DNA of 36,584 nt, from the NCBI GenBank assembly GCA_028694405.1, contig JAQUTM010000002.1:1-36584 (forward strand), read 5' to 3'. The position numbers and the translations under genes were made by a program. Below, one piece after another: positions 14,076 through 34,815 of the stretch (its first letter is position 1; every line of letters starts with the position of its first letter). The notes under the pieces are model-generated. The model saw nothing but the letters and a program-made list of their open reading frames with translations. It made no database searches and was not told where the DNA came from. The DNA is from Oscillospiraceae bacterium. GTDB lineage: Bacteria > Bacillota > Clostridia > Oscillospirales > Ruminococcaceae.

Positions 14076-14078
14076 AGG

Positions 14079-14549
14079 TTATTTTTCCTCCTGTGTTGCG
14101 GTTGTTGTGGTTGCGGCGGTTTCGGCTTGGGTGCGCACCCATTTTACAAGGGGCATTAAAAAGGGCACGTCAACACCCATGTCGCCGATGTTTTCCAGCA
14201 CGCTGATGATTTCGTTGGCAAGCAGCCAAAGGCACACCAGCGCCGCCAGTGCAAAATTTACAGGCAGCCCAACGTTTAGCGTTTGTGCCACATATGCCAG
14301 TAAAATATCCAGCATAATGCCAATGGCCACAAGCAGCCACATGGCAATTTTTTTGGCTATGCCCTTTATGCCTGTGCGGCTGCTGCGCACTTGCGCGCGA
14401 AAGGGCGCCGCCAAAAGCCCTGTAATATAGTCCATTACATTAGCACCTGCCAGTAAATACACCGGCACCGCCAAAATGCCAAGACGTGCCGTAAGCAGGC
14501 CCGCGGCGGCCGCAAACGCCGCTTTGGCGTGTTGCAGGTTTGGTTTCAT
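14079..14549 (-). CDS. Phage holin family protein (phage_holin_4-like)
   Basis: 156 aa, TM segments, VMDYITGLLAAPFRAQVRSSRTGIKGIAKKIAMWLLVAIGIMLD typical of this holin family; beside GH25 lysin. Confidence 0.85.
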   Translation of the reverse strand: MKPNLQHAKAAFAAAAGLLTARLGILAVPVYLLAGANVMDYITGLLAAPFRAQVRSSRTGIKGIAKKIAMWLLVAIGIMLDILLAYVAQTLNVGLPVNFALAALVCLWLLANEIISVLENIGDMGVDVPFLMPLVKWVRTQAETAATTTTATQEEK

Positions 14550-14677
14550 GGTACATTCTCCTTTTTGTTATAAATTGTTTTTTGTTTTAAATACAGCAAA
14601 GGCAGCATTTACACCGCTGATTTTTGCGATTATTTTGTTTGTTTTAAGCAGTGGCAACCTATTATCGTCTCTTTTGG

Positions 14678-15463
14678 CTAAGCGCCGCTTTGGCAAAGCG
14701 CCACCTGCGCCGGCACTTGCAGCCGCTGTGCCAAAGCCTTTAGCGCGGCACAGTCGCCTGTACTTACGGGGCCCACGGTTAGGTTGTAAAGCGGTGCGGC
14801 GGGTACGCTGTTTGGGGGCGACGGCTGCACATAAGCGCTGTAACCGTTTAAACCAAGGCCCTTAATCAGCGGGGGAAAATTTTTGGTGCAGGTGGATAAA
14901 TCCACTTTGCCGTCAATGCCCGCCACGGTGCCGCTGCTTGTGTACTGGTGCATGGCACAGGGAATGGTCGTATCGTATTTTGTGCGGTAGTCGGCTTTCC
15001 ATAGGGTGTATTTGCTTAAGTATGCCGTGTCAAACTTTTTGAGAAGCCACGCGGTGTAGCTGTAATAGCCCGCAAAGTAGCCCGCTTTTTCTAAGGTGCT
15101 GCAAAAGGTGTCGGTAATAGCGGTTATGGCGGCTTTGCCAAGGGTGCCCTGACGCTGTGTATTTTCCACATCGTAGTAAATGGGCAGCTCAAACTGCTTG
15201 CCTTTTAGCAGAGACAGGCAAAACGCCGCCTCCTTTTGCGCCGTTTTTACACTGTCGGCGGCAGAATAATAGTAAGCGCCCACGGGCACACCCTTTGCTT
15301 TAAAGCCCTTATAGTGCATTTCAAAAGAGGGGTCTGCCTCCATGCTTTGTGCGCCCCAGTAGGTTAAGCCACAGCGCAAAATAACACCGTCAATGTCCTT
15401 TGCACAGGCGGCGTAGTCAATTACAGGCTGGTATTTGCTCACATCTAAAATTTTGTATGCCAT
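14678..15463 (-). CDS. GH25-family lysozyme/endolysin
   Basis: KILDVSKYQPVIDYAACAKDIDGVILRCG...GVPVGAYYYS...PIYYDVENTQ...AMHQYTSSGTVAGIDGKVDLSTC are GH25 features. Confidence 0.92.
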   Translation of the reverse strand: MAYKILDVSKYQPVIDYAACAKDIDGVILRCGLTYWGAQSMEADPSFEMHYKGFKAKGVPVGAYYYSAADSVKTAQKEAAFCLSLLKGKQFELPIYYDVENTQRQGTLGKAAITAITDTFCSTLEKAGYFAGYYSYTAWLLKKFDTAYLSKYTLWKADYRTKYDTTIPCAMHQYTSSGTVAGIDGKVDLSTCTKNFPPLIKGLGLNGYSAYVQPSPPNSVPAAPLYNLTVGPVSTGDCAALKALAQRLQVPAQVALCQSGA

Positions 15464-15464
15464 T

Positions 15465-15584
15465 TTAGCCTCCTGTTATCTCATGTGCCTGTGCCTGTGT
15501 GATAATGCCTTTTGTTACAGCCTGCTGCACCTGCACGCCTGTCCACAAGCCTAAATTGTAAAACTTTTTTATTTTTTCAAACAT
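15465..15584 (-). CDS. XkdX-like small phage protein, 39 aa (not in ORF track)
   Basis: Minus-strand translation MFEKIKKFYNLGLWTGVQVQQAVTKGIITQAQAHEITGG*, preceded by GGAGGG; 2 bp from lysin start; matches XkdX-type pattern. Confidence 0.75.
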   Translation of the reverse strand: MFEKIKKFYNLGLWTGVQVQQAVTKGIITQAQAHEITGG

Positions 15585-15587
15585 GGG

Positions 15588-15842
15588 TTATCCCTCCAAA
15601 AGCGTATCGGTCATCATGGCGGTGTAAACCGCCTGGGCTTCTACTGTGTCCCATTGGCTGGGCTGTATTGCGGGGTTATTTTGCGGCAGCGGGTCGTACA
15701 CATAGCTGCCGTTTTGGTAGCGGTAATCGCCCACATCGCCCTCCGGTAACGTCTGTGCCAAAGCCATGCTGTCAGCGGCATATTTTGCATAGGTTACAGA
15801 TAACACACGTCCGTCTGTGCCTAAATTTAATGCGTATTTCAT
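15588..15842 (-). CDS. Small phage tail-associated protein, 84 aa
   Basis: MKYALNLGTDGRVLSVTYAKYA...DYRYQNGSYVYDPLP; directly after the tail fibre gene. Confidence 0.6.
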   Translation of the reverse strand: MKYALNLGTDGRVLSVTYAKYAADSMALAQTLPEGDVGDYRYQNGSYVYDPLPQNNPAIQPSQWDTVEAQAVYTAMMTDTLLEG

Positions 15843-15843
15843 G

Positions 15844-16848
15844 TTACTGTACTCCTTTTATTCCGTAAATTTTAACGGGTATATTATAATTATTATCTGT
15901 ATTATTTCCTGTTGGGATATAAGTGACATTATTTTCAAAAGATACACCATTATCACTCGTAGATATGTATCTAAAATGAAATGCAACATATGCTCCACTA
16001 TAGCCCCCAAACGTTATCTGGGTTTTTTCTCCTTTTTTACACATTACATAATCAGCAACTGTATTTCCTGAAATATATGTGTTTAATGCGATTACAACTC
16101 CATCATATTTGCTTAAATCCAATGCAAGTGTCTGCTCTGCAAATGTACTGCTGGGGCTTATATTTTCCCAAAGCAGTTTCATGCTTAGTTTGGTATCTGT
16201 ATACGCTTTGCCTTGCCCGGCTGTAAAGTTTAGCTGTGTGCCGTCATAGGTAAAGCTTACCCAGGTACCGATGTTATCCGCTGTCAGCGCAGCCTCTGCG
16301 CCTGTTGCGGTTGAGACAGCTGTGCCGTTTACGGTGAAGGTATCACCTGCGGCATATAGGGCGGTTACCAACATACGGCCGTTTGCGCCGTTGCCTGCCA
16401 GTGCGTGCACCGTGCCTGTTTTGGTTTGGGTGTAAATTTTTACGCCGTCAGCAGAATTTGCTGCGCTTGTTGCCAAATCTGCCTTTGCAACAATGCCGTA
16501 GCCGCTGCCTGCATACTCGCCTTTTGCCATGTCGCCCGCGCCCATTTCGATAATTTTTTCATCAATTTTTGCGTCGGTTTGTACTATAGTGTATGCGCCC
16601 ACCTGCGCCGCTGTTATGGCGTGGGGGTTTTGGGTGCTGTCCATATGGGCTTGCAGGGTTATGCCGTCTTTGTTATAGGTGTTAATAATGGTGTTTATTT
16701 TTTCCTCGTGCAGGTTGGGTATGGCGTCCATCAGCTGCTGTACGGCAAGGGTAATTTCCTCTGTGGTGCCTGTGGCGGGCGGGTCCGGCTGGCCTGTGTG
16801 CTTTTTGCCGGCGGTATCTGCGGCGGTAATGGGTAATAGCTGTGTCAA
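15844..16848 (-). CDS. Phage tail fibre/receptor-binding protein
   Basis: NPHAITAAQVGAYTIVQTDAKIDEKI is a common tail-fibre motif; beta-rich C-terminus; first gene of cluster D. Confidence 0.8.
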   Translation of the reverse strand: MTQLLPITAADTAGKKHTGQPDPPATGTTEEITLAVQQLMDAIPNLHEEKINTIINTYNKDGITLQAHMDSTQNPHAITAAQVGAYTIVQTDAKIDEKIIEMGAGDMAKGEYAGSGYGIVAKADLATSAANSADGVKIYTQTKTGTVHALAGNGANGRMLVTALYAAGDTFTVNGTAVSTATGAEAALTADNIGTWVSFTYDGTQLNFTAGQGKAYTDTKLSMKLLWENISPSSTFAEQTLALDLSKYDGVVIALNTYISGNTVADYVMCKKGEKTQITFGGYSGAYVAFHFRYISTSDNGVSFENNVTYIPTGNNTDNNYNIPVKIYGIKGVQ

Positions 16849-16921
16849 AAGTGTGTGCCTCCTTTTTTTGATAGCCTAGGGCCGTGCTTCCCTGTTCTTG
16901 TATAAGCATAACGGGTTATTT

Positions 16922-16943
16922 TGCAATATTATCCGTAAGTTTT
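16922..16943 (-). promoter_or_regulatory. Conserved phage-cluster motif, site 1 (cluster D)
   Basis: Plus strand tgcaatattatccgtaagtttt, 74 nt upstream of 16848 start; near-identical to sites 2-4. Confidence 0.85.
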
Positions 16944-17017
16944 AGCGGCTTGTAAAACCACAGGCTGTAGTTTATAATGAGTCTGATTTCTTTTTATGAC
17001 GGAAACGAGGTACCCAT

Positions 17018-17221
17018 ATGCTTGTTGTGTGGAGCTTGCTTGTACTTACCCTTGGCGTGTTTATGGTGATAACACCCCAAACCGTATATGCGTTTACCCA
17101 AAGCTGGAAAAACAGCACCGCGGCCGAGCCGTCGGATTTGTATTTGCTCAGCACACGCATCGGCGGCGGCTTTTGCTGTTTGGCGGGTGCGGCAGGCATC
17201 GTGGTGCAGTTTGTTGCATAG
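17018..17221 (+). CDS. Small membrane protein, DUF6199-like, 67 aa
   Basis: MLVVWSLLVLTLGVFMVITPQTVYAFTQSWKNSTAAEPSDLYLLSTRIGGGFCCLAGAAGIV; two TM segments with the SW(K)...EPSDLY..STR pattern. Confidence 0.7.
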   Translation: MLVVWSLLVLTLGVFMVITPQTVYAFTQSWKNSTAAEPSDLYLLSTRIGGGFCCLAGAAGIVVQFVA

Positions 17222-17340
17222 CCGAGGTGCTTGCGGGGTTTAAGGGTTTACGGAGATAAGCCTTTGAAAAGGCTTGGCGAAGCTTTTATAGATGTAACCG
17301 TTTACGCAAAAGCACGCCCCGTCCTTACTTAATATAAAAT

Positions 17341-17451
17341 ATGGGTTTGTAAAAAACAGTGGTGTGGGCTTTGCAAAAGCAAACAGCAAAACGCAGAGTT
17401 TTGCGCATTTGCCAAGCCGGCACAGCACCACCGATTTTTTTACAAACCCAT
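17341..17451. repeat. Long imperfect inverted repeat (MITE-like or large hairpin)
   Basis: ATGGGTTTGTAAAAAACAGTGGTG at left; CACCACCGATTTTTTTACAAACCCAT at right; internal CAAAAC/GTTTTG hairpin. Confidence 0.75.
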
Positions 17452-17553
17452 TATTTTTTTACCGTTTCAAAGCACACATTGCCCTATTAAGCGCAAACCC
17501 ACCTCATTAAAAAATTTAGGTTAAGCCTTTTTAAAGGCTTACGGGTTTGGGCA

Positions 17554-17632
17554 GCGCCCAAGCATACCGGTGCCCAAGCATACCGGTGCCCAAGCGTGCC
17601 GCTGCCCAAGCATACCGCTACCCAAGCATATG
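17554..17632. repeat. Tandem repeat, 16 bp unit GTGCCCAAGCATACCG, about 5 copies
   Basis: gcgcccaagcataccg gtgcccaagcataccg gtgcccaagcgtgccg ctgcccaagcataccg ctacccaagcatat. Confidence 0.92.
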
Positions 17633-17646
17633 CCCAAACGCCGCCC

Positions 17647-19542
17647 TTACCGCTGGGTATACGTTACGCGCAGGCCGTATAGTGCAAAGGGCTCGGTACG
17701 GCCGTTTTCAAGCACAAACTGAGCCTGTGTTTTGTTTTTTAAAAGCAGCGGTGCCTTTAGCTGCCTTGGCATGGTGTTGTTGCTGTAGGTAAAGGTGGCG
17801 TAGCTGAAATTGCTGTAGGTAAAATACCGCGCTTGAGAGGTATAGTCTTGTACAAGGTGCTTTGCGCCGCCTGCCAGCGCATACATGCGACAGCCCGTAG
17901 CGGCAAAGGCGCCAAGCAAAACGTACAGGCGCTGAAAATTCTTTTTAAAGGCAAAGCTGCCGCCGTAAAGCTGGGCGGTGTACCACGCCGCATAAACAGG
18001 GGTGCCGTTATCGGCATAGCAGGCAGTTTGCGCCTCGTCGGTGTAAAAGTATTCCATTTTGCCGTTTGCGGTGCCAAAGGCTAGGGTATCGTTTTTGTTA
18101 AACAGCACCCGCGCGCCTATATTTGTCCAGTAAAAAACCGCAAACTGGCGGTGACTAAACGGGGTATTTGCGTCGGTGCTGTACTGGGTGCCGTCCAAAA
18201 TGTACAAAGCGTCGTTTACCGCAATATAGCGCTGCTGGGCTATGGTTACCGCAAAGGCGTTTTGCAGGTTTGGCTCTGCCAAAAGGCGGCCGTTGGCGTA
18301 ATAGCTGCGCAGCTGGGCATAGCGCTCGCCCAAAACGTCACTGGGGGTAATGGCATAATCGCCCTTTTGGGTTAAAAACATGGGCTCGTTTTCCAAGTCG
18401 CTAAAGCAGTGGCGGCTTACGGCGCCCTCGCCCTGATAGCTGCCTGCGCTGATAAACGCCGCGGTGCCGTCATCGGCAAGGGTGCCTGTGCGCAAAAAGA
18501 TGTTGGTATCGTCGGCGGCGTTTTGCTTTACGGTGGCAAGCTTGTCGTTGATAATGCGGTAGCCCATAATGGGGCTGTCGCTTTGGCCAAGCACGGTGTA
18601 CCACTGGTCTGCAAAATAGGTGCCACCGCCTGCCGTGTCAAGCTGGCTGTACCAGTCATAGTTGCAAAACCCGCTGTTGCCCGCCACAAACAGACGGTCC
18701 CTGCCGCCGCTTACGCCGTAAATGGTTACAATGCCGCAACGGTTAATTTTATCGGCGTAGCCCTCCACCGTTTTTGCATAGGTGATGTACACATTGTCCT
18801 TTTCGGTTGGGCTTATGCCGGGCGGCGTGGCAAAGGTTACGGTGCCTAGGGTGCGGTTAACGGTAAAGTGGGTGTTTTCGGTAAGGGCGTGCAGCGTGCC
18901 GTCGGCTTGCAGGGTTTGTGCCGTTACGGGGGCTGCGTCTAAATCGGTGGCGCTCAGCTGGTACACCGTGGCTGTGGCGGTACCTGTAAATTTTTCCTGC
19001 CGCTTTGCACAAAGCAGGTTTATGGGCTCCAGCGCAACGCCGCCCCCTGTGGGGGTGCGTGCAATAATAACCGTGGGCACATAGGCAACGGTATCCAGCG
19101 GCTTTACGCTTTTGCCGTCGTAAACCAAAGCGCGTGTGCCGTCAAAAATGTACAGCATATCGTTTAGCTGTACGCTTTGGCTTATGGCGTTTGCCATGCC
19201 GCTGTACAGGGCTTGCTGTGGGGTAACCTGTACAGGCGGCGCGCCTGCGGTGTGGGCGACGGCAAGGTTTGGGTAAAGGGCGGTATCCGCATGGATAAGC
19301 TGTGTTTGTACCCCCTCCTTGGTAAAGCTGTGACAGCCGTTTATGGCACCGGGGTACACCGCGGCGGTGTAGTGGCCTGTGCGTTTTTTTACCTTGCCCA
19401 CGCTCTCTCGGGTTAGGTTTGGGGCATAAGGACTGCGGGTTTTATGCACATTGGCGGCGCGGTTGGTAAAATCGTTGCCGCAAAAGGTGTCGGTTTCAAA
19501 TACGGCTTGGGTGTAGCCCTGCCGCAGATTGATTTTTGCCAT
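17647..19542 (-). CDS. Podovirus-like tail tube/stabilisation protein (gp12-like position)
   Basis: 631 aa, beta-rich, MAKINLRQGYTQAVFETDTFCGNDFTNRAANVHKTRSPYAPNLTRESVGKVKKRTGHY...NGCHSFTKEG; follows a head-tail connector-like gene. Role inferred from order and style. Confidence 0.6.
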   Translation of the reverse strand: MAKINLRQGYTQAVFETDTFCGNDFTNRAANVHKTRSPYAPNLTRESVGKVKKRTGHYTAAVYPGAINGCHSFTKEGVQTQLIHADTALYPNLAVAHTAGAPPVQVTPQQALYSGMANAISQSVQLNDMLYIFDGTRALVYDGKSVKPLDTVAYVPTVIIARTPTGGGVALEPINLLCAKRQEKFTGTATATVYQLSATDLDAAPVTAQTLQADGTLHALTENTHFTVNRTLGTVTFATPPGISPTEKDNVYITYAKTVEGYADKINRCGIVTIYGVSGGRDRLFVAGNSGFCNYDWYSQLDTAGGGTYFADQWYTVLGQSDSPIMGYRIINDKLATVKQNAADDTNIFLRTGTLADDGTAAFISAGSYQGEGAVSRHCFSDLENEPMFLTQKGDYAITPSDVLGERYAQLRSYYANGRLLAEPNLQNAFAVTIAQQRYIAVNDALYILDGTQYSTDANTPFSHRQFAVFYWTNIGARVLFNKNDTLAFGTANGKMEYFYTDEAQTACYADNGTPVYAAWYTAQLYGGSFAFKKNFQRLYVLLGAFAATGCRMYALAGGAKHLVQDYTSQARYFTYSNFSYATFTYSNNTMPRQLKAPLLLKNKTQAQFVLENGRTEPFALYGLRVTYTQR

Positions 19543-19593
19543 GTGTTCCTCCTTTTTTGAGTTTGTGTAAGGCTTTATAGGGGGTGCTGTGTG

Positions 19594-20181
19594 TTAGCCC
19601 TGTAACACACAGCTTACCCTGCCGCCGCTTACACAGTCTGTTTGACGGCGCGCTAAAAGCTCTAAAATTTCGCCCTCGGCAAGATTTTGATACTCGGTGG
19701 CCTTTTGGGGGTCATCATCGCGCCAGATGTAATACGCCGCAAGCTTTGGCAAAATGCAGGCGGCGTAATAGTCGGGCTCTAGGGGGTAGTCGTCGGGGGT
19801 GTCGGCGGTAATTTTAAGCGGAATTTCCTCGTACCACAGGGTAAAGTCCCCCTGCACCGTGGCGGGTATGTACAGCAGGCTGCCCTGTAAGCGCAGCCCT
19901 TGTACCACCTTGCCTGTGCCGCTGTAATATGCCGGCCGCAAAGCCGCGCGGGCAAAGCGCACGGTGTCCTGTACGGCGGTAAGTGCCGCCAAATCCACGC
20001 TTTTTGCGCTGCCTGTCCCCGTTAGCAAAAGCGGCTTTTCTATGGGCAGCTTTTGCACCAGATAGCTTTGGGCGTGGTTTACCCCCGCCAAAAACAGCGC
20101 GGTGTTTGCACTGTAGGCGGTGGCTTGCTCAAACCCCAGCGCAATAATGTCGTTTTTTACTTCTCCCCAAGTTTTAATCAT
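19594..20181 (-). CDS. Podovirus-like head-tail connector/tail tubular A-like protein
   Basis: About 195 aa; MIKTWGEVKNDIIALGFEQATAYSANTALFLAGVNHAQSYLVQK...FTLWYEEIPLKITADTPDDYPLEPDYYAACILPKLAAYYIWRDDDPQKATEYQNLAEGEI; typical of phage connector proteins. Start at MIK with AAGGAG. Confidence 0.7.
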   Translation of the reverse strand: MIKTWGEVKNDIIALGFEQATAYSANTALFLAGVNHAQSYLVQKLPIEKPLLLTGTGSAKSVDLAALTAVQDTVRFARAALRPAYYSGTGKVVQGLRLQGSLLYIPATVQGDFTLWYEEIPLKITADTPDDYPLEPDYYAACILPKLAAYYIWRDDDPQKATEYQNLAEGEILELLARRQTDCVSGGRVSCVLQG

Positions 20182-20220
20182 ATGCTTCACTCCTTTTTCT
20201 TTTATCTTAGCGGCTTATAC

Positions 20221-20242
20221 TGCAATATTATCCGTAACTTTT
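20221..20242 (-). promoter_or_regulatory. Conserved phage-cluster motif, site 2 (cluster C)
   Basis: Plus strand tgcaatattatccgtaactttt, 40 nt upstream of the 20181 start. Confidence 0.85.
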
Positions 20243-20412
20243 TTGTGCAATTTACAGATATTTACATATATTATGACTTTTTATTGCACATTTCATATAA
20301 ATATGATATCATTACCCTGTAAGTTAGGAGCATTTTACAAAATACAGCAAATTTTTTCTAAAAAACTACCTGCCGGCACAGCGGGTAGCGTTGAAAGGAC
20401 GGAACCCCTATT

Positions 20413-22599
20413 ATGAAGTCTATCAAACAAAAGCTGATTGTTAGCATCGCCATTGTACTTGTGGCAATGTCGCTGTCTACGCTTGCGGTAAGCATAGCCT
20501 CTACCTATAAAAACATGCTTGCCAACGTAGAAAGTGATATGCAGTCTTTAGGTGATTTGGCCAATATAACGCTTGGCAACGAAATTAAACTTGTAAAATC
20601 TCAGGTAGAAAGTTTTGCCATTCAGTGCGACGACACCATGCCGCAGATGGAAATGGCGTTTTTAATCGGTCGTAACGCTGTAATTAAATCTTACGACGGT
20701 GTACTTGCCGCCACTTTTATTGATACAAAGGGCGATGCGGTAGGCCGTGACGGCTACTTAAACGGCAAAAACTGGGCAGATGAAGACTTTGTAAAACGCG
20801 CCCTTTCGGGCGAAACCACCCTTTCTCACACTGTAATTGAGGACGACGGCTCCACTGTTTTTTATGCGGCAGCCCTTGTGCCCGACGATTACCGCTATGA
20901 CGGCATTATTGTATTTACGATGGACGGTCAACATTTTAGCAATGTAATCAACTCCATTACCATAGGTAAAACCGGCAACATCTTTATGCTGGACAATGAG
21001 GGCACCATGATGGCAAATATGCGCCCCGAAATGGTAGCCACACGCGCCAACTACATCACCCAGCCCAAAGAGGGCTACGAGCAGATGGCAGCCGTGTTTA
21101 AACGCATGGTTGCCGGCGAGCGTGCCGTTGACAGCTACAGCTTTGGCGGCGTTGCACGCGTTTGTGCCTTTGGCCCCATTACCGGCAGCGACGGCTGGAG
21201 CTACGGCGTGGCGGCACCCCGTAACGAAATGCTGTCCTCTATTGTTACAACTATTCTTTTAATGGTTGTGGCATCTTTGCTTTGCTTGGCAGCAGGTTTG
21301 GCTGTTGTTTACCGCCTTGCAAGCCGCATTGCCGCCCCCATTACTAAGGTTAGCGCCCGCATGGAAAGCGTGGCACAGGGCGATTTAAGCTCTCCTGTTG
21401 AGATAAGCGCCTCTAAAGATGAAATCGGCCAGCTTACCCACAGCGTATCTGACACCGTGTCTACCTTAAGCACCTACATACAAGAGATTGACAAGGTGTT
21501 AAACCGCCTTGCCGCAGGAGATTTAACCGCAAAGCCCACCGTACATTTTAAGGGCGAATTTGTGGGGATTGAAAAATCTTTAAAAGCCATTACAAAGGCG
21601 TTAAACGCCACCTTTGCCGAAATTATTACCAGTGCCGACAACGTGAGCAGCGGCAGCGAGCAGGTTAGCGGCGGCGCGCAGGCACTAAGCCAAGGCGCAA
21701 CCGAGCAGGCAAGCAGCATTGAAGAGCTTGCCGCAACCTTAGCAAACGTAAACGCAGGCGTTGCCGCCACGGCAACCAACGCCGCAAACGCCAACTCCCA
21801 AACAAAGCTTTCGGGCAAGGAGATGGACGTGAGCACCGCCAAAATGCGTGAACTGGTTGAGGCGATGCAGCACATTCAAAGCAGCAGCAAGGAAATTGGT
21901 AAAATTATCAAAACCATTGAAGATATTGCGTTTCAAACCAACATTTTGGCGCTTAACGCCGCTGTAGAGGCCGCCCGTGCAGGCGCTGCCGGCAAAGGCT
22001 TTGCCGTTGTTGCAGACGAAGTGCGCAACTTGGCAAATAAATCTGCCGAAGCCGCCAAAAACACAGCCGGCTTAATTGAGGGCAGCCTAAAAGCCGTAAA
22101 GGCAGGCGTAACCTTGGTTGGCGAAACCGAGAGCTCGCTTGAAAAAACCACCGCTGTTGTTAACAAGGTTAGCACACTGGTAGACGAAATTGCCGTTGTT
22201 GCCCAAGAGCAGGCAAACGCCATTTCGCAAATATCTTTGGGCGTAGAGCAAATTAGCGGCGTGGTACAAACCAACAGCGCAACCGCCGAGGAGAGCGCCG
22301 CCGCCAGCGAGGAGCTGCACGCACAGGCAGCCACACTAAAACAGCTTGTTAGCAAGTTTCAGCTTAAAAACGCCGACGGCTCTGCCACAATGCGTCTTGA
22401 AGGCCAAGCCATGAGCATTGAATACACCGAGGAGCCTGACGAGCCAATAGAGCAGCCCGCAGAGCAGCCCGCAGCAAAGCCTGTAGAAGAACCCGACCAG
22501 GAGCCCACACCCACCCCTGCCGAAAAAGCAGAGGAGCCCAAAGCCGAGCCGGCTCCCGCAAACTATGAGTTTGAAAACGATAAAAACGACAAATACTAA
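20413..22599 (+). CDS. Methyl-accepting chemotaxis protein (dCache-like sensor, HAMP, MA domain)
   Basis: N-terminal TM, extracellular sensor, HAMP, and [50 protein letters not shown]; Pro/Glu-rich C-terminal tail. Confidence 0.97.
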
Positions 22600-22618
22600 T
22601 CCCTAAATCAGAGTAATA

Positions 22619-22661
22619 AAAAACGCCTTATGCGGCTTTTGGCTGCACAAGGCGTTTTTTT
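22619..22661 (+). terminator. Rho-independent terminator after the MCP
   Basis: AAAACGCCTT...AAGGCGTTTTTTT. Confidence 0.85.
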
Positions 22662-22770
22662 AGGCATAAAAGCAACAAAGGCTTTAAATTTGCCGTTTGG
22701 GTAAATTTTATGCTGCAAACAGAATACACTTTACAAAACAGCAAAGCTCTTTACAAGGAGGAGGCAGCTT

Positions 22771-23166
22771 ATGGACAACAAAATTTTAGTGCGAGATTTT
22801 TTTACCGCCGCCTATACAAACCGTGACAGCGGCTTTGTAATGCGCCACTTTACCCCCCATTATACAGACCACAGCCCCCTTGCCGCACGCAGCAGCGCCC
22901 AAGCCGCCTACGCGCTTTCCGAGCTGTACACCCAGCTTAACCCCATACGGGCAAGCTTGGTGCACATGGCGGCAAGCGGAGACATTGTGGCGGTACTGGT
23001 AAGCTTTACGGCGGTACACAGCGGTCCTTTTATGGGCGTTGCCCCCACAGGGCGCACGCTGCGCTGGCAGGCGCTGGAACATTTTCGCATAGAAAACGGT
23101 CAAATTGCCGAGAGCTGGGGCGCTTGGCCCGACACACAGCTTTACGCCCAGCTTACCGCGCGCTAG
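22771..23166 (+). CDS. SnoaL-like/ester cyclase family protein
   Basis: 131 aa; HFTPHYTDHSPLA..., GVAPTGRTLRWQALEHFRIENGQIAESWGAWP is typical of SnoaL-type proteins. Confidence 0.88.
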   Translation: MDNKILVRDFFTAAYTNRDSGFVMRHFTPHYTDHSPLAARSSAQAAYALSELYTQLNPIRASLVHMAASGDIVAVLVSFTAVHSGPFMGVAPTGRTLRWQALEHFRIENGQIAESWGAWPDTQLYAQLTAR

Positions 23167-23245
23167 CCCAAAGCCCAAAAAAAGCGGGCAGCTTGCAAAC
23201 ACCCAAAAAGCACAGCTTCTTTGCGGTATGTTTTTTGCTTTGGGT

Positions 23246-24043
23246 TTACCCAAGGGCAACGTCCAGCATCATCATAACCAAAAAGCCCACCATTACGCTC
23301 ACCGTGCCCGTGTGGGAATGCTCGCCCAGATTTGCCTCGGGTATCAGCTCCTCCACCACAACATAAATCATGGCGCCTGCGGCAAAGGACAAAATAAACG
23401 GCATAACGCCTGTAATGCCTGCCGCCACAAACACCGTAAGCACGCCAAAAACAGGCTCTACAATGCCGGATAGCGCCCCGTACAAAAACGCCTTTCCGGT
23501 TGGCGTCCCCTCCGATTTCAGCGGCAGCGATATTGCCGCGCCCTCGGGAAAGTTTTGCAGCCCCATACCAATGGCAAGGGCAACTGCACCCCAAAAGGCA
23601 CCGGGGTCACCGTCCTTTGCAACCAGTGCAAACGCAAGCCCTACCGCCATGCCCTCGGGAATATTGTGCAGCGTCACCGCCAACACAATCATAGTGGTAC
23701 GCTTTAGCTTTGCGGGCAGGCCCTCGGGCTGCTGTGCGCCAAGGTGTAAATGCGGCAGCAAGCCGTCCAACAGCATTAAAAAGCCGCCGCCGCACAAAAA
23801 GCCCAACCCCACCGGCACAAATACAATTTGCCCCGCTGCCTTTGCCATTTCCATAGCCGGCATTAACAAAGACCATACCGACGCGGCTATCATAACGCCT
23901 GCGGCAAAGCCCAAAAATATTTGCTGCATTTTTGGCGATAAATCTTTTCTGAAAAAAAACACCATTGCCGCCCCCAGCACGGTTGCCAAAAAGGTAAACC
24001 CCGTGCCCAAAAGGGCGTATAAAACTTCGGTTACTTGCGGCAT
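23246..24043 (-). CDS. ZIP family metal transporter
   Basis: TLHNIPEGMAVGLAFAL, GLQNFPEGAAISLPLKSEG and VVEELIPEA are ZIP TM4/TM5 signatures; start MPQVTEVLY after GGAGAGGG. Confidence 0.93.
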   Translation of the reverse strand: MPQVTEVLYALLGTGFTFLATVLGAAMVFFFRKDLSPKMQQIFLGFAAGVMIAASVWSLLMPAMEMAKAAGQIVFVPVGLGFLCGGGFLMLLDGLLPHLHLGAQQPEGLPAKLKRTTMIVLAVTLHNIPEGMAVGLAFALVAKDGDPGAFWGAVALAIGMGLQNFPEGAAISLPLKSEGTPTGKAFLYGALSGIVEPVFGVLTVFVAAGITGVMPFILSFAAGAMIYVVVEELIPEANLGEHSHTGTVSVMVGFLVMMMLDVALG

Positions 24044-24274
24044 AATGAAACCCTCTCCTACAGCCTTTGCGCGCTGCACTACCCTTGGCAGTTAAACGCC
24101 TTAAAGGCGCCTTTTGCCTACCTTCTAAGCGCCCTTTGGTGCCACCGCCCGCAAAGCTTCTCATGTCACTAAAAAAACAGGCTATCGGTATCAATGGCAC
24201 ATAGCTGTTTGGTAATAAATATTAGCTTATATACAATAATTACAAACAATTTTATCAATAACAGTAATAATTAC

Positions 24275-24289
24275 TGATAATAATCATAC
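24275..24289. promoter_or_regulatory. Possible Fur/Zur-like metal-regulator box upstream of ZIP gene
   Basis: TGATAATAATCATAC: first half TGATAAT perfect, second half weak. Confidence 0.25.
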
Positions 24290-24524
24290 GCTTTTTTTTA
24301 CCAAAGTCAAGGGCATTTTTAGAAAACATTTTGTTTTTATAAAATTTGTGCGCTTTGCTGTTTTTAAAGCCATTTCTCCGAGAGGGTTCTTTTCCATAAA
24401 GCCGATTTAAATTTGCTTTTAAGCCACCCACACCTTGGCAGGCTGTCGTTGCCAAAAGGCTTTCTCAGCGGTATAATAAAGCTACAGGTTGTTCCACATT
24501 TTGTTTGCAGCAAGGAGGCGCACC

Positions 24525-25331
24525 ATGCCTTATAACGCAAAAAACTGCACAATCCAAATAGACAATACCACGATGGACTATATTTCCTTTGGCAGCGGCA
24601 GCAAAAATCTTGTCATTATCCCCGGCCTTGGCGATGCCTTAAAAACAGTAAAGGGGACGGCTTTTAGCTTTTCGCTGCTGTACAAGCTGTTTGCAAAAAA
24701 CTACAAGGTGTATGTGTTTAGCCGCAAAAACAAGCTGAAGCAGGGCTGCTCTACAAGAGATATGGCGGCAGATTTAGCAGCTGCTTTGCATCAGCTTTAC
24801 ATAACAGACGCCTGCGTTATGGGCGTTTCTCAGGGCGGCATGATAGCCCAGCATTTGGCAATCGATTACCCCGAACTGGTAAAAAAGCTTGTTTTGGCTG
24901 TAACCGCTTGCGCGCCAAACGAGACCTCCAAAAGCGTAATTTCCCACTGGCTTGCCCTTGCGGCAGAAAACAACTTTTATCAAATATTTGCAGATACCGC
25001 CGAAAAAACCTACACCGAAGCAAAATTGAAATTGTATCGTCCGTTTTATGGGGTTTTAAGCAAGCTGAGTGCGCCTAAAAATTTGGACCGCTTTATTTTA
25101 CAGGCAACCGCCTGCCTGAACCATAACGCTTTGGAGGGGCTTTCCAAAATTAAGTGCCCCACGCTTGTTATAGGCGGCGACAACGACAAAATTGTAGGCG
25201 GCTTTTCTTGTGCACAGCTTGCAGGCCACATTGCGCAAAGTAAGCTGAAAATTTACAGCGGTCTGGGTCACGGTACATACGAGGAAGCCCCCGATTTTAA
25301 CCGCCGGGTTTTGACTTTTTTTGATAATTAA
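24525..25331 (+). CDS. Alpha/beta hydrolase
   Basis: LVIIPGLGDALKT, nucleophile elbow GVSQGGMIAQHLAIDYPELVKKLVLAVTA, C-terminal GLGHGTYEEAPDF; start MPYNAKN after AAGGAGG. Confidence 0.93.
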   Translation: MPYNAKNCTIQIDNTTMDYISFGSGSKNLVIIPGLGDALKTVKGTAFSFSLLYKLFAKNYKVYVFSRKNKLKQGCSTRDMAADLAAALHQLYITDACVMGVSQGGMIAQHLAIDYPELVKKLVLAVTACAPNETSKSVISHWLALAAENNFYQIFADTAEKTYTEAKLKLYRPFYGVLSKLSAPKNLDRFILQATACLNHNALEGLSKIKCPTLVIGGDNDKIVGGFSCAQLAGHIAQSKLKIYSGLGHGTYEEAPDFNRRVLTFFDN

Positions 25332-25357
25332 ATTTTACTTCATCTGAAAACCCACGC

Positions 25358-25408
25358 AAAAAGCAAGGGCATCACCGCTTAAAACGGTGGTGCCCTTTGC
25401 TGTTTTTT
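25358..25408. terminator. Terminator between alpha/beta hydrolase and phage cluster B
   Basis: AGCAAGGGCATCACCG / CGGTGGTGCCCTTTGCT followed by GTTTTTTT on the plus strand. Confidence 0.8.
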
Positions 25409-25531
25409 TATAAAAGTGCTTTACCTTGCCGCCGCCAAAAGGCTTACAGGTTTGTCCCTGCCAAGCTGCCTGCGGCTGATTTTTTGTAAATGAGACGGTA
25501 CACGCCATTTTTTGCCGCGCAGGCATTTTTG

Positions 25532-25777
25532 TTAAATGTACCCTGCCTGTGTAAGCAAAAGCGCAATGGTTTTGGGTACCTGTACCGTTTGACCGCGGTT
25601 AATAAAATAGTTGTAGCCGTTTACACAAACCGGCACAACCTTATCCTGCCTGTTTAAGGGGTCTGCGGCAATTTTAAGGGTTACTTTTTCCTCTTTTGCG
25701 TACAGCTCGCCCCATTTTTGGGCTTCCGCGTCCAGCTGCAACCCGCTTTGCAGGGTGGTTTGTTTTTGTGTTGCCAT
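25532..25777 (-). CDS. Small phage protein downstream of capsid, 81 aa
   Basis: VVPVCVNGYNYFINRGQTVQVPKTIALLLTQAGYI; directly after the capsid-like gene. Confidence 0.7.
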   Translation of the reverse strand: MATQKQTTLQSGLQLDAEAQKWGELYAKEEKVTLKIAADPLNRQDKVVPVCVNGYNYFINRGQTVQVPKTIALLLTQAGYI

Positions 25778-25858
25778 TTTTTTACTCCTTATTTCTTTTT
25801 AAAATTGCCTGCGGCTTTTTTTGTATTACCGTGCCGCAGGCGTTTTGACAAAGCAGCT

Positions 25859-26794
25859 TTACAGAGTTGCGGCGCTCTCTAAGCGCACCATGCTAAGCTC
25901 TTGCAGGCGAACCGCACAAAACAAAGCTTTCCAACCGCTTGTGGCACGTTGGTTTAGGGGGTCGTCGGTGCCCGCGCTGCCAAGGGGTTTTACAATCATC
26001 TCGGGCTTTGCGCCGCCGCCTGCGCCTGCAACGTCAACCACGCCGTAAGCGTCTGCACCCAAAATCATGGTTTGGTGTACCACTATGCCGCTTGTGTTTT
26101 CCGCTGTAGGGGCGTTGCTGCTTTCAATAAAGCGCACACCTGCCAGCTTGCCGATTTCCCCGCTCATAATGGCGCTGCCGCCGCTGTATTTGCTAATGTC
26201 CTGCCACAAGGGGTCGTTCATAATGTCGTAGGCAATGTCGCTGTCAATAATGCCGATGTAGTAGCCGCCCTCCAAAGGACGAGCGTTGTTGCGCTTTAAG
26301 GTGCGCACAGCCTTGCGGATTTCCCCACTGGTAATGACGTCTGCGGCGGTAACGGCGTCGCGGTTTGCGCGACCGCCCGCATACTGTACGTTTGTGCCGG
26401 CACAAACCACGTCACGCACTACGGTGTCAATGGTAAGGGCGGCGCTTTCGCCAAGCACGTTGGCTGTCTCAATCAGCACAGGGTCAATGCCTGTGGTTTT
26501 AAGCTTGTCGGTAATGCGCACAAAATCTCCGTACTGCTGCACGGTACACTCCACTTTGTCCACGTCAAGCGCCTTGCCTGCGGGGGTTACGCCCTCGGTT
26601 AGCGGGGTTGTGCTGGGTGCAATGCTGTTAAAACGTCTAAACGATATTTTATCGCCCTCGTTTTGCGGCATACTCTTTTTTTGCCCAAAACGGGCAAACA
26701 GCAGGTTTGGCACCAAGCGTTTTAGCAGGGTGCGCTCGTAGTACACCTTGTTTTCTGCCAAGGTGTTTGCAAGGGTATTTGTTACGTCTGCCAT
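25859..26794 (-). CDS. Phage major capsid protein, N4-gp56-like
   Basis: MADVTNTLANTLAENKVYYERTLLKRLVPNLLFARFGQKKSMPQNEGDKISFRRFNSIAPSTTPLTEGVTPAGKALDVDKVECTVQQYGDFVRITDKL; typical N4-gp56-family N-terminus. Start has AGGAGG. Confidence 0.92.
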   Translation of the reverse strand: MADVTNTLANTLAENKVYYERTLLKRLVPNLLFARFGQKKSMPQNEGDKISFRRFNSIAPSTTPLTEGVTPAGKALDVDKVECTVQQYGDFVRITDKLKTTGIDPVLIETANVLGESAALTIDTVVRDVVCAGTNVQYAGGRANRDAVTAADVITSGEIRKAVRTLKRNNARPLEGGYYIGIIDSDIAYDIMNDPLWQDISKYSGGSAIMSGEIGKLAGVRFIESSNAPTAENTSGIVVHQTMILGADAYGVVDVAGAGGGAKPEMIVKPLGSAGTDDPLNQRATSGWKALFCAVRLQELSMVRLESAATL

Positions 26795-26869
26795 GTATTT
26801 TGTCCTCCTGTATGTTGTGTTTTGGCGGCGCACGGTTACCGCCTGTAGGTTAATAGTACCAAGCTATTC

Positions 26870-26891
26870 TGTAATATTATCCGTAACTTTT
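26870..26891 (-). promoter_or_regulatory. Conserved phage-cluster motif, site 3 (cluster B)
   Basis: Plus strand tgtaatattatccgtaactttt, 76 nt upstream of the 26794 start. Confidence 0.82.
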
Positions 26892-26905
26892 GCAGCTTAA
26901 AAATT

Positions 26906-27829
26906 TTATAATCGGCCCTGCATACCAAGCTTTAAGTAATAGTCAAACTCCTCATCGCTCATGGTGGCATAGTTTTTTTCGCCCGCGGGCTGGGCTGTGC
27001 CAATGCTGCCGGGGCTGCACAGCTGGTTTTGCTGCACAGCGGCAACGGCCGCCTGCTGGGCGGCGGCTTGCAAAGCATCAAAATTGGCAAGGCGGTACGC
27101 CTCCAGTGCGCCAAGCCCTTTTGCCATATAGTCGGCATACGCCCCGCTGCCTGAAATTTCACTTAAACAGGTGGCGGTTTCGGCGGGGTATGCCGCCTTA
27201 ATTTCTTGTAGCTGACGCTGCATTAAGCTTTGGGCGGCATTTGTGCCGCTTGCCTGCATCTGCTGTGCAAACACCGCAAGCTGCTGTGCCATTTGGCTAG
27301 GGGTACCCGCCACGCCAAGGGTGGCAAGGGCAGCGTACAGGCTTTGGGTGTCATCGGTTTTGGGGGTAAAAGACGGGTTTTGCCCACCTTGTCCGTCTGG
27401 CAAAGCTTCCCCCTCTGTTGCGCCGCTGTTTTGGCTGGCTGTGACGTGGGCGGTATGGTTTTTTGCAGTGTTTAAGGCAGCTTCGTTTTGCGGCGCAAAA
27501 AAATCTGAGACGCTGTCTTGCCTGTGGGCTTGTGGGACAAGCGCATCTTGTTTTGGCAAGCCTTGCGGCACGCCTGTAGCTGTCGCTTGGCTTTGCGGCG
27601 CCATAATGCCATTTGCCGCCATGCCGCCTGCTGTGCTCTCACCTGTGTTTGCATTAGCTTTGCGTGTGCTTTGGGCATTTTTTTGGGCAAAGCTTGGGGC
27701 AACGCCTGCACTTTCGCTTTGTAAGGGTGCCTGTGCGCCGCTTATAAAGGCGTCGGTGCCGCCAAACGGCGCAAAATCGGTTTGCGGCAAAGCCCCCGCC
27801 CAAAAATCTTCACTTGCGGTTTGGCTCAT
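26906..27829 (-). CDS. Phage scaffold-like protein
   Basis: Low-complexity Gln/Ala/Ser-rich 307 aa between portal and capsid; C-terminal acidic DEEFDYYLKLGMQGRL. Role from position. Confidence 0.65.
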   Translation of the reverse strand: MSQTASEDFWAGALPQTDFAPFGGTDAFISGAQAPLQSESAGVAPSFAQKNAQSTRKANANTGESTAGGMAANGIMAPQSQATATGVPQGLPKQDALVPQAHRQDSVSDFFAPQNEAALNTAKNHTAHVTASQNSGATEGEALPDGQGGQNPSFTPKTDDTQSLYAALATLGVAGTPSQMAQQLAVFAQQMQASGTNAAQSLMQRQLQEIKAAYPAETATCLSEISGSGAYADYMAKGLGALEAYRLANFDALQAAAQQAAVAAVQQNQLCSPGSIGTAQPAGEKNYATMSDEEFDYYLKLGMQGRL

Positions 27830-28026
27830 AGCTGCGCCTCCTTTTGCTCGGCTTTGTCAAGCAGTGTGCGGGTGCCGCTTTGGCCGGCGGCGGTTTGCAC
27901 ACAGTTCACCTTGGCACACCGCGGGTTTTTGCACACATAAAAGTATGTGGTAATCTGTGTATTATCTGTAGTTTTTTGCTCTACATGGTCTACAAAAAGC
28001 TGTAGCTTGCAGTGTGTACATTGCAT
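27826..28026 (-). CDS. Small Cys-rich (zinc-ribbon-like) protein, 66 aa
   Basis: MQCTHCKLQLFVDHVEQ...YFYVCKNPRCAKVNC; overlaps scaffold start by 4 nt. Confidence 0.7.
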   Translation of the reverse strand: MQCTHCKLQLFVDHVEQKTTDNTQITTYFYVCKNPRCAKVNCVQTAAGQSGTRTLLDKAEQKEAQL

Positions 28027-28122
28027 AGGAATTCTCTCCTTTTATAACAGTTTGTAACGATTTATAACCGTATATTGTAAGCGGGTAGTTTAAAAAAAGC
28101 CGACGCACCTGCAAAAACCGCC

Positions 28123-29763
28123 TTATGCCGGGGGTACGCCAACGGCACCACCTTGCGGGGCTTGTACCGCCGCCATTGCCGCGTTTTGGGCTGTGGCGCT
28201 TTTTGCCGCCGCCTCCAGCATTTTTTTCAGCTGCTCTTTAAAGGGCACCACATTGCGCGGTGCAAGCTGTAGGTACTGCTCCAACGTAATTTCACCTTTG
28301 TCATAAAAGCGGTCCAGCGTGGCAATGGCAAGCTCTTCGCCGTACTCGCTGCTGGTGCCCACGTCTACCGCAAGCTTAAAGTCTACGTCCGCATAGCGCG
28401 TACCTACAAAGGCACGGGTTTTTGCCACGCCGTCGGCGTCGGTTACGGTAATGGCGCGCGGCAAGGCATAGTAGGTTTTAAAAAATTGCTCCCAAATGCG
28501 GCCCACCTGCTCCATGGCTCTAAAATAGCGGCGGCTAATCTCTTTAATGGGCGTTTTGGCTTGGTTTTGCAGCGCAATAATGGCACTTGCCGCCATGTTG
28601 CCCGCTATACTTTCGCCGGTGCTTACACCGGTTACGCCTGTAACGGTGCGCGCCATTTCAAACACCTCGTTGGCAAGGCTGCCCGCAAAGCTGCCAAAGG
28701 CAGGCGGATTTAAATATTTAATCCCGTTGCCGTCACTGGTGCGGTCGGTTAAAATTTGTCCCGGCTCGTTGGTAATGGGCTCTTGAATTGCCCCGGCACG
28801 GCGGATAATCTTAGGGCTGCCCAGCTGTTGTACACTATACAAGCTGTACGCTTTTATTAAATTATACGCTTTGTTAATGGTAATTAAATCCTGTGCCTCG
28901 CCAATGCCGTAAATGCACCGTTTGCGCTTGCGCCAGTTTAACACCACAAGCGGATACAACGTAATGGGTGCCTTTGCCGTTTTTGGGGTTAGGGGTGTGG
29001 GCGGCACCACCTGGGCATTTTTGGTGGTTTTTTCAAAATACACTTGGCCGTCCTTTCTAAAATAACGGGTTAACACCGTTACCTTTTCGCCGTCTGCGTG
29101 GGGGGTGTTTTCCTTGGCGGCGTCGTACAGCTCGTAGTCGGCGTCAGGCAAAATTTGGCTGCACCTGCCGCTGCCTACGCCGTAGCGCTTTGCCACCGCG
29201 CGCACGTCCTGCACCCGCTCGCGGCTTGTAATAATAACGTAGGGCTGTTTTTGCACGTCCTTGCACTGGGGGTTGCCAAAAAACACATTTAGCGGGTCAA
29301 CCACGTCACCCCGAATATCCCCTCCGGTACGGCGCGAGGCAGTTGTAACATCGTTGCTCCAGTAGTAGTGCAAAATCCCGGTGCCAAGGGTGGCGGCATC
29401 GTCTATAAAGTCGTCGTTCAGCTCGTCTTGGGCGGCGCTGCTCCACAAAATGCGGGCAAAATCGGTGTAGTCGGCGGCACCCTTTGCGGCAAGAGCGGCG
29501 GCTTGGGTACCCCCTGCCAGCGCCATTGCAGGGCTGTAGTGTATGGCAATGCTCTGGTTGGTAACGCTGGCGCGCTTTGCCTTGATAAACATTTCCACAA
29601 TGTTAAACACAGGCCGTGGAAAATCCGCATTGTCGGCGGTGGGGGTGTTCCACTGGTGGCCCTCCTTAAAGCGCTCAAAGGCGGGAAAATCCTGCCGAAA
29701 GCCCATGCTTTGCTGGTATTGCAGGCCGTCTTGGTACTGCTGCCAGTTTGTTTGTACAGACAT
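28123..29763 (-). CDS. Phage portal protein
   Basis: 546 aa: FPAFERFKEGHQWNTPTADNADFPRPVFNIVEMFIKAKRASV...DVVDPLNVFFGNPQCKDVQKQPYVIITSRE...GVTGVSTGES; typical portal layout. Confidence 0.9.
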   Translation of the reverse strand: MSVQTNWQQYQDGLQYQQSMGFRQDFPAFERFKEGHQWNTPTADNADFPRPVFNIVEMFIKAKRASVTNQSIAIHYSPAMALAGGTQAAALAAKGAADYTDFARILWSSAAQDELNDDFIDDAATLGTGILHYYWSNDVTTASRRTGGDIRGDVVDPLNVFFGNPQCKDVQKQPYVIITSRERVQDVRAVAKRYGVGSGRCSQILPDADYELYDAAKENTPHADGEKVTVLTRYFRKDGQVYFEKTTKNAQVVPPTPLTPKTAKAPITLYPLVVLNWRKRKRCIYGIGEAQDLITINKAYNLIKAYSLYSVQQLGSPKIIRRAGAIQEPITNEPGQILTDRTSDGNGIKYLNPPAFGSFAGSLANEVFEMARTVTGVTGVSTGESIAGNMAASAIIALQNQAKTPIKEISRRYFRAMEQVGRIWEQFFKTYYALPRAITVTDADGVAKTRAFVGTRYADVDFKLAVDVGTSSEYGEELAIATLDRFYDKGEITLEQYLQLAPRNVVPFKEQLKKMLEAAAKSATAQNAAMAAVQAPQGGAVGVPPA

Positions 29764-33043: not shown

Positions 33044-33201
33044 CCGATAGGTAAATGGGTTAATTTGTATTTTATTGCATAATTTTACATAATTTGTAAT
33101 ATTCTGTTTGATTTTTTGGTATTATTGTATTATTATAAACATGGTATATCTTATTTTATATGTTATATATATCTAATTTTACATAAAAAGGTGGTACGCG
33201 C

Positions 33202-34815
33202 ATGGCACAAAATTTAATTTTCACCGACGAGCAGCTTTGCTTTGGCTGTAACAAGTGCATTTTAAAATGCCCCACCCACGCCAATGACGCTATTTTATCA
33301 AACGGCGAAAATAAAATTCACATAAATGCCACCCGCTGCGTGGGCTGCGGTGCATGTATTACCGTGTGTGACCACGAGGCGCGCAGCTTTAACGATGACA
33401 CCCAGCGCTTTTTTGAAGATTTGGCAGCAGGGGTGCCCATCTCGGTTATTGTTGCACCTGCCGCGCGCACCAACTTTCAAAACCTTGAAAATTTATTCGG
33501 CTACCTAAAAAGCTGCGGCGTAAACTTGATTTATGACGTATCCTACGGCGCCGACATTTGCACATGGGGCTACATAAGGGCAATACAGCAGCAAAACCTG
33601 CAAACGGTCATTGCCCAGCCCTGCCCCGTTGTTGTAAACTACATTGAAAAATTTGCCCCCCACCTTATCCCCTGCCTTGCGCCTATTCAAAGCCCTGCGC
33701 TGTGCACCGCCATTTATCTGCGCAAATATGCTCAAAACACCGATAAACTCGCCTTTTTATCCCCCTGCGTTGCCAAAAAGGACGAGTTTGATGACGACAA
33801 CACCCACGGCCATGTCAGCTATAACGTAACCTACAAAAAGCTGCTTGCCTATCTGCAAAAAAAAGGCGTAAACCTCTCTGCCTTTGCCCCCGCAGGGTAC
33901 GACAATCCGGCGGGCGCGTGGGGGGTTACGTTTTCGCGTCCCGGCGGCTTAAAGGAAAACGTGCGTTTTTATCTTGGCGATGACGCGTGGATTAAGCAAG
34001 TAGAGGGCACCGACCACCTTACCGCATATTTTAACCAGTACGCCGCCGCAGCAAAGGCGCATAAGCCGCTGCCGCTTTTGGTGGACGTTTTAAATTGTGA
34101 GGACGGCTGTAATTTGGGCACAGGTACAGCAAAGGCTGTTGCCTATGACGACATTGACTACACCCTTAACAAGCGCAAGGCAGCCGTTACCAAGCAGGAC
34201 ATGGCAAAGGTAGCCGCCTACTTTGATGATACGCTGGACGTTACCGATTTTTACCGCACCTACACCGATAAAAGCGGCCAGCTGCCCGCAGATAATATTG
34301 CCGCCATTGAGGAAGTGTTTCATCAGCTTGGCAAGCACACCGAAAAGGACCGCAACGTAAACTGTTTTTGCTGCGGCTACGGCAGCTGCCAAAGCTTTGC
34401 CCTTGCGGTGGCAAACGGCCATAACCACAAAGAAAACTGTATCCGCTACGCGCAGGTGGCAAACGCCCAAAAGCTGACGTCCTTTGACGATATGATTGCA
34501 CAATTTACCGCCGAAATGTCGCGCATGAACCAGGACATTCAAGCGGTAACAAAGTCGTCCCGCACGTTAAACGATATTTCTATGCAGACGAAAATTATCT
34601 CCATAAACGCCAGTATCGAGGCAGCCATTGCAGGCAGCGCCGGACGGGGGTTTTCGGTAATTGCCCACGAGATGAAAAACTTGGCGGAAAAATCCGCCGC
34701 CGAAAACCAGCAAAACACCGACAACGCCACACAGCTGCTTAGCCAAATTGACGGTATCAACACCGCACTGGAGCAAATTCGACAGGAGCTGCACCACGTT
34801 ATGCAGCAGGATTAA
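33202..34815 (+). CDS. [FeFe]-hydrogenase-like iron-sulfur sensor fused to a methyl-accepting signalling segment
   Basis: Two 4Fe-4S motifs (CFGCNKCILKCP, CVGCGACITVC), H-cluster-like regions (QPCPVVVNYIEKF; LSPCVAKKDEFDD; LNCEDGCNLGTGTA), FeS motif CFCCGYGSCQSFA, and C-terminal ISMQTKIISINASIEAAIAGSAGRGFSVIAHEMKNLAEKS. Confidence 0.9.
   Translation: MAQNLIFTDEQLCFGCNKCILKCPTHANDAILSNGENKIHINATRCVGCGACITVCDHEARSFNDDTQRFFEDLAAGVPISVIVAPAARTNFQNLENLFGYLKSCGVNLIYDVSYGADICTWGYIRAIQQQNLQTVIAQPCPVVVNYIEKFAPHLIPCLAPIQSPALCTAIYLRKYAQNTDKLAFLSPCVAKKDEFDDDNTHGHVSYNVTYKKLLAYLQKKGVNLSAFAPAGYDNPAGAWGVTFSRPGGLKENVRFYLGDDAWIKQVEGTDHLTAYFNQYAAAAKAHKPLPLLVDVLNCEDGCNLGTGTAKAVAYDDIDYTLNKRKAAVTKQDMAKVAAYFDDTLDVTDFYRTYTDKSGQLPADNIAAIEEVFHQLGKHTEKDRNVNCFCCGYGSCQSFALAVANGHNHKENCIRYAQVANAQKLTSFDDMIAQFTAEMSRMNQDIQAVTKSSRTLNDISMQTKIISINASIEAAIAGSAGRGFSVIAHEMKNLAEKSAAENQQNTDNATQLLSQIDGINTALEQIRQELHHVMQQD

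Follow-up and report, generated by a model that had tools for sequence, protein, structure and literature searches.

The gene at positions 33202–34815 (forward strand) of the window – the whole stretch of 36,584 nucleotides of Oscillospiraceae DNA analysed here – encodes what is, on balance, probably a cytoplasmic, membrane-free sensor derived from [FeFe]-hydrogenases, of the group C2 type, that supplies CheA and CheW with a non-adapting H2 or redox input. Its architecture is already known: HydDB lists a '[FeFe] group C2, chemotactic (putative)', for which H2 sensing has been proposed (PMC5037454), though no mechanism is given there. The likeness lies in a sensory-type [FeFe]-hydrogenase being tied to chemoreceptor (MCP) signalling – here by fusion in one ORF – and the window protein differs in having the shortest hairpin and two unusual tip residues. 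Our assignment to this group follows from architecture and from branching apart from the PAS-type clade, rather than from the HydDB classifier. What is new here is the ancestry of the outputs, the co-occurrence with CheW, the heptad spacing with its shortest arm, and a tip carrying Lys and Ile.

The ORF runs uninterrupted from ATG to stop, and reading the opposite strand of the same region revealed no comparable ORF. The upstream region is AT-rich and holds one promoter-like match at 33108–33136, which is no evidence by itself, as the pattern scan returned two sites against 3.0 expected; promoter and terminator scanning around the gene gave nothing above chance. Elsewhere in the window, prophage-like genes occupy 13251–29763 on the reverse strand (a P22-type portal at 28123–29763, a capsid gene at 25859–26833 and others without an assignment), a stretch broken at 20413–25331 by host-like genes, among them a dCache–HAMP MCP on the forward strand. 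The main elements of the hydrogenase–MCP gene are as follows.

33187–33194, forward strand: Shine–Dalgarno-like AAAGGTGG, a few nucleotides 5' of the ATG, recognised in the sequence
33202–34815, forward strand: sensory [FeFe]-hydrogenase with MCP-type output (group C2-like), soluble, 537 residues (Pfam, PDB sequence search, homologues, AlphaFold2, Foldseek)
33238–33369, forward strand: two ferredoxin-type [4Fe-4S] sites, C13-C16-C19-C23 and C46-C49-C52-C56 (Pfam Fer4, Fer4_21 and Fer4_10; cysteines invariant in 25 sequences)
33439–34119, forward strand: H-domain Fe_hyd_lg_C, residues 80–306 (Pfam 3.1e-29; Foldseek match to 8zqd at 4.8e-20)
34363–34440, forward strand: C-terminal [4Fe-4S] site CxxCGx3Cx16C, C388/C391/C396/C413 (Pfam FeS PF04060, residues 386–414, 3.9e-4; in 25 of 25 homologues)
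34480–34794, forward strand: truncated MCP signalling hairpin, residues 427–531, equivalent to profile positions 13–117 of 172 (Pfam MCPsignal 4.4e-17; helical in the model)

The two ferredoxin clusters, H-cluster-like motifs, extra C-terminal cluster and soluble MCP tip claimed by an earlier, sequence-only reading of this DNA are all borne out by these matches. Fer4-type diclusters cover residues 7–60, the H-domain scores 102.8 bits against a gathering cut-off of 22.1, and the FeS match lies slightly under its gathering score. The same reading had made its case depend on the C-terminal segment resembling the MCP tip profile, and it does so with 62.9 bits against a cut-off of 34.6. A PDB sequence search returned separate matches to [FeFe]-hydrogenases (1.9e-18) and to MCP signalling domains (2.6e-10), the latter, being independent of Pfam, placing the tip far beyond chance. 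The AlphaFold2 model, built with 22 relatives as input (mean pLDDT 83.8), has a core that Foldseek matches to [FeFe]-hydrogenases and a tail that is helical throughout from residue 428; the tail helices are of lower confidence (pLDDT about 53–77), and the model, being of a monomer, is silent on dimers.

Three motifs line the H-cluster pocket:

33616–33627, forward strand: L1 motif QPCP, with C141 as the CpI C300 ligand and P140 replacing the proton-relay C299 (alignment with group A, B and D-like hydrogenases of the same genome)
33760–33786, forward strand: L2 motif SPCVAKKDE, with ligand C189, K192 equivalent to CpI K358 and S187 replacing M353 (alignments)
34090–34110, forward strand: L3 motif LNCEDGC, with ligands C299 and C303 and L297 replacing CpI M497 (alignments)

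By alignment to the group A, B and D-like hydrogenases of its own genome, C141, C189, C299 and C303 correspond to CpI C300, C355, C499 and C503, the cubane ligands of the H-cluster. These four and P140 are invariant in two alignments (25 and 23 sequences), and the second-sphere set P140/S187/L297 is typical of the clade, which together argue that the pocket is under selection. The prototypical group A signature – TSCC/SP at L1, Cys299, M353 and M497 – is replaced by QPCP, SPC and LNC. It had been suggested that L1 is 'reduced to QPCP'; the motif is indeed present, but the term misleads, as the ligand cysteine is kept and only C299 has become Pro, a signature of the clade. A decayed H-cluster site was likewise considered and rejected, since QPCP and the ligands are kept clade-wide. 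About 10% of the sensory sequences in HydDB carry Pro at CpI position 299 (PMC10055695).

Two characterised sensory enzymes, compared through their published descriptions, share much of this core. HydS of Thermotoga maritima (TmHydS; group C, M2f) has the same two [4Fe-4S] clusters, H-domain and C-terminal [4Fe-4S] cluster, a non-Cys residue at C299, and replacements of M353 and M497 (PMC10055695, PMC8163306); it differs at position 299, which is Ala there and Pro in the window protein, and in its output, a PAS domain instead of an MCP hairpin. HydS of Thermoanaerobacter mathranii (TamHydS; group D, M2e) shares the C-terminal Cx2Cx4Cx16C arrangement and the Ser and Leu that replace M353 and M497 (PMC8163306), but it and group D lack the output domain that the window protein possesses. 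The CxxCGx3Cx16C motif is of the same type as the C-terminal cluster of both enzymes (PMC8163306, PMC13104023).

Proteins of this type are common in gut and rumen Clostridia, with dozens of homologues. Within the order, 30 of 197 genomes gave matches with E<1e-30, a count that includes distant PAS-type proteins; within the family, 30 of 199 gave matches with E<1e-50. A scan of named genomes gave at least 596 matching stretches, with relatives among the matches listed from Lachnospiraceae, Oscillospiraceae, Clostridium, Butyrivibrio, Roseburia and Family XIII MAGs. The set of ferredoxin, H-domain, FeS and MCPsignal is found in all 25 proteins of our first alignment (A1; the window protein and 24 homologues), and no close orthologue was found, the best relative having 48% identity in the core. 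The earlier proposal to survey genomes for the domain combination, with its caveat that the architecture might prove widespread and already characterised, is therefore answered in two parts: it is widespread and named in HydDB, but our literature search found no paper testing a group C2 protein experimentally.

In a tree of the H-domain (91 rows, rooted on PAS-type sensors; a quick tree with SH-aLRT support only), the clade comprises 47 proteins with an MCP tip, six with a histidine kinase (in one clade), one with an HD-GYP domain and 20 in a single, mostly tip-less coiled-coil clade, a few of whose members lack an output or end in a low-complexity tail. The non-MCP outputs were assigned by reading the sequences rather than by profile, and five changes explain all the outputs on the tree. 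MCP output is the commonest state and, by parsimony, the ancestral one, the histidine kinase, HD-GYP and tip-less coiled coil being most parsimoniously derived. The tip-less output (VHAKSVLLARHSEL...NSTMDAxSVxQLVxIL) is an unnamed module of about 140 C-terminal residues on the same sensor core (loci L055, L058, L059, L060, L061, L064, L066, L067, L072 and L073), and some of its bearers belong to CheW-less genomes. At L050 (G317:C89), the same core is fused to a domain that by eye is HD-GYP-like, which suggests a c-di-GMP output.

Of the conceivable signals, H2 suggests itself most readily, but profile searches of the window protein's own genome found no HydG and no HydF over cut-off – the weak HydF matches lie below it and are probably other GTPases – so that a complete H-cluster is not assured. 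This gives some weight to a different reading, which we consider a distinct if minor possibility: that the protein senses redox state, O2 or FeS rather than H2, holding only [4Fe-4S] clusters (the H-domain cubane among them) with the [2Fe] subcluster undelivered, while still driving CheA–CheW. A sensor needs no catalytic activity, and among the genomes of tip-bearing relatives 12 of 23 lack HydG over cut-off, 11 of these 12 also lacking HydF, with several being 97–100% complete. However, the window protein's genome, assembled in 226 contigs, is 86% complete, which leaves room for an unrecovered hydEFG cluster, and the invariance of the ligands and pocket set also counts against this reading. 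Furthermore, the HydG-less genomes still encode catalytic-type [FeFe]-hydrogenases, which implies some maturation route, and activation by HydE and HydF without HydG has been discussed as biochemically possible (PMC9431212). The window protein's own genome also encodes group A, group B, D-like and PAS-type-like [FeFe]-hydrogenases.

Several observations on maturation stand apart from the window protein. Genomes G119, G058, G079, G045, G169, G124, G193, G326, G370, G282, G029 and G026, several of them 97–100% complete, encode catalytic-type [FeFe]-hydrogenases but neither HydF nor a HydG over cut-off. At L136 (G304:C2:2006500-2026400), HydE and HydF adjoin two NifH-like and four nitrogenase-component-1-like genes together with HypF, HypD and HypE; the same run recurs at L137 (G348) and L138 (G381), and part of it at L141 (G367), where the contig ends after HydE, HydF and the first part of a nitrogenase-like gene. 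All four are genomes of relatives and have no HydG over cut-off. These runs are a possible lead to HydG-independent H-cluster maturation or a CO/CN source. Group A hydrogenases with TSCSPGW, in which Ser replaces the cubane ligand equivalent to CpI C300, occur in the window protein's genome (L005; G000:C82:6806-7660) and in many relatives, commonly both with and without HydG. The supposition that genomes lacking HydG have hydrogenases of the TSCSP type alone was rejected, TSCSP being found in HydG-positive and TSCCP in HydG-negative genomes. It is conceivable, though improbable, that in a large part of the clade the H-domain functions without help from canonical HydG and, in many cases, from HydF. 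It might then be a redox sensor for chemotaxis that holds the cubane alone, or its H-cluster might be made by another route, such as one combining HydE/HydF with nitrogenase-like proteins and HypDEF.

The link to chemotaxis is drawn from the hairpin and from the genomes that encode it. Compared with 47 relatives and with six other MCPs of the same genome, the tip shows these features:

34558–34701, forward strand: hairpin tip SRTLNDISMQTKIISINASIEAAIAGSAGRGFSVIAHEMKNLAEKSAA (compared with 47 relatives and the six other MCPs)
34591–34593, forward strand: K464, at the position we take to be Tsr N376; Asn in 42 of 47 relatives and in all six MCPs (tip alignment)
34627–34629, forward strand: I476, at the position we take to be Tsr R388; Arg in 44 of 47 relatives and in all six MCPs (tip alignment)

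The window protein alone among the 48 has Lys and Ile at these two positions, presumably trimer-of-dimers contacts, and its tip has several further unusual residues, while the rest (QT, NASIEAA, GRGFSVIA, NLA) is well preserved. Its arms are also the shortest, at about eight heptads each: 56 residues separate the last cluster Cys from the tip Asn position, compared with 73–119 in the others. This distance is 56, 77, 105, 112 or 119 – every value a multiple of seven – in 40 of the 48 sequences, the remaining values being 73 and 116 (a lone raw value of 120 results from an additional Cys), and five of the seven distinct lengths share one heptad phase (p about 0.007). The methylation region should lie, by our reckoning from Tsr Q297/E304/Q311, 70–84 residues before the tip Asn; the 56-residue arm accordingly leaves no room for canonical methylation sites. 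The mostly whole-heptad spacing agrees with the symmetric heptad insertions and deletions by which MCPs are known to change in length (PMC5907407), and it speaks for the importance of helix register between cluster and tip.

The genome of the window protein encodes CheA (L003), CheW proteins and the six other MCPs, which have canonical tips. CheW is present in all 24 genomes with MCP-tip homologues (this one included), compared with 8 of 17 genomes carrying only other outputs and 6 of 20 sampled non-carriers of the family (Fisher 7e-5 and 3e-7, respectively, uncorrected for phylogeny). Together with the profile matches and homologues, this strengthens the proposed coupling to CheA/CheW, which we regard as probable. 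The other use suggested for the tip, as a dimerisation module, finds little favour across the clade, since every genome with a tip-bearing member also has CheW; for the window protein it keeps some, though low, probability, because tip and arms are atypical.

The hairpin of the window protein might then be a mere dimerising or structural remnant, uncoupled from CheA–CheW – an unlikely reading, but one in keeping with the shortest hairpin, the replacement of near-fixed Asn and Arg, the other odd residues of the tip, and the related clade that swapped its tip for a tip-less coiled coil, so that loss does happen. It sits less easily with the well-kept remainder of the tip, the strong Pfam match, the whole-heptad length and a host genome that is chemotactic. 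The same Lys/Ile tip and short hairpin, with the lack of a close orthologue, count against the preferred reading as a CheA–CheW input. That the protein is instead a monomeric, catalytic hydrogenase whose helical tail is incidental is very unlikely: TmHydS and TamHydS, with comparable pocket changes, do retain slow H2 turnover (PMC10055695, PMC8163306), but here the proton-relay Cys is Pro and both framing Met residues are replaced, separate group A and B enzymes are present in the genome, and the outputs of the clade are signalling domains. A fusion made by misassembly, or a decaying pseudogene, would suit a fragmented assembly and an atypical tip but is hardly credible for a single in-frame ORF with a ribosome-binding site and intact ligands, whose fusion type recurs in dozens of independent genomes.

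In the preferred reading, that of a sensor feeding CheA–CheW, the H-domain, wired by the two N-terminal [4Fe-4S] clusters, would respond to H2, or to the ferredoxin/redox pool, with a change of state. This change would pass to the C-terminal cluster domain and on to a helix held in fixed coiled-coil register, probably as a conformational signal; a relay by cluster redox change is doubtful, given that 1 atm H2 leaves the C-terminal cluster of TamHydS unreduced (PMC13104023). Paired hairpin tips would then alter CheA activity via CheW, and, with the hairpin cut short and the methylation zone absent, signalling would proceed without adaptation by CheR/CheB. Canonical MCPs (PF00015) have in common with this protein the tip sequence, the helical hairpin and a heptad-quantised length, but the window protein lacks their transmembrane segment, HAMP domain and methylation region, and departs from them in its arm length and in the replaced Asn and Arg.

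H2 chemotaxis has been demonstrated in a methanogen, as reported in PMC4266047, but we are aware of no receptor for which direct H2 sensing has been demonstrated. The restriction of tips to CheW-bearing genomes, the mostly heptad-based spacing, and the swapping of MCP, histidine kinase and HD-GYP outputs on one core make H2/redox input to chemotaxis directly testable, and suggest that, in the H2-rich communities of gut and rumen, several pathways can be driven by one and the same H2/redox sensor core. The window protein offers a natural minimal version of the type, probably a non-adapting one, and proteins of this type are good candidates for feeding H2 or redox signals directly into bacterial chemotaxis.
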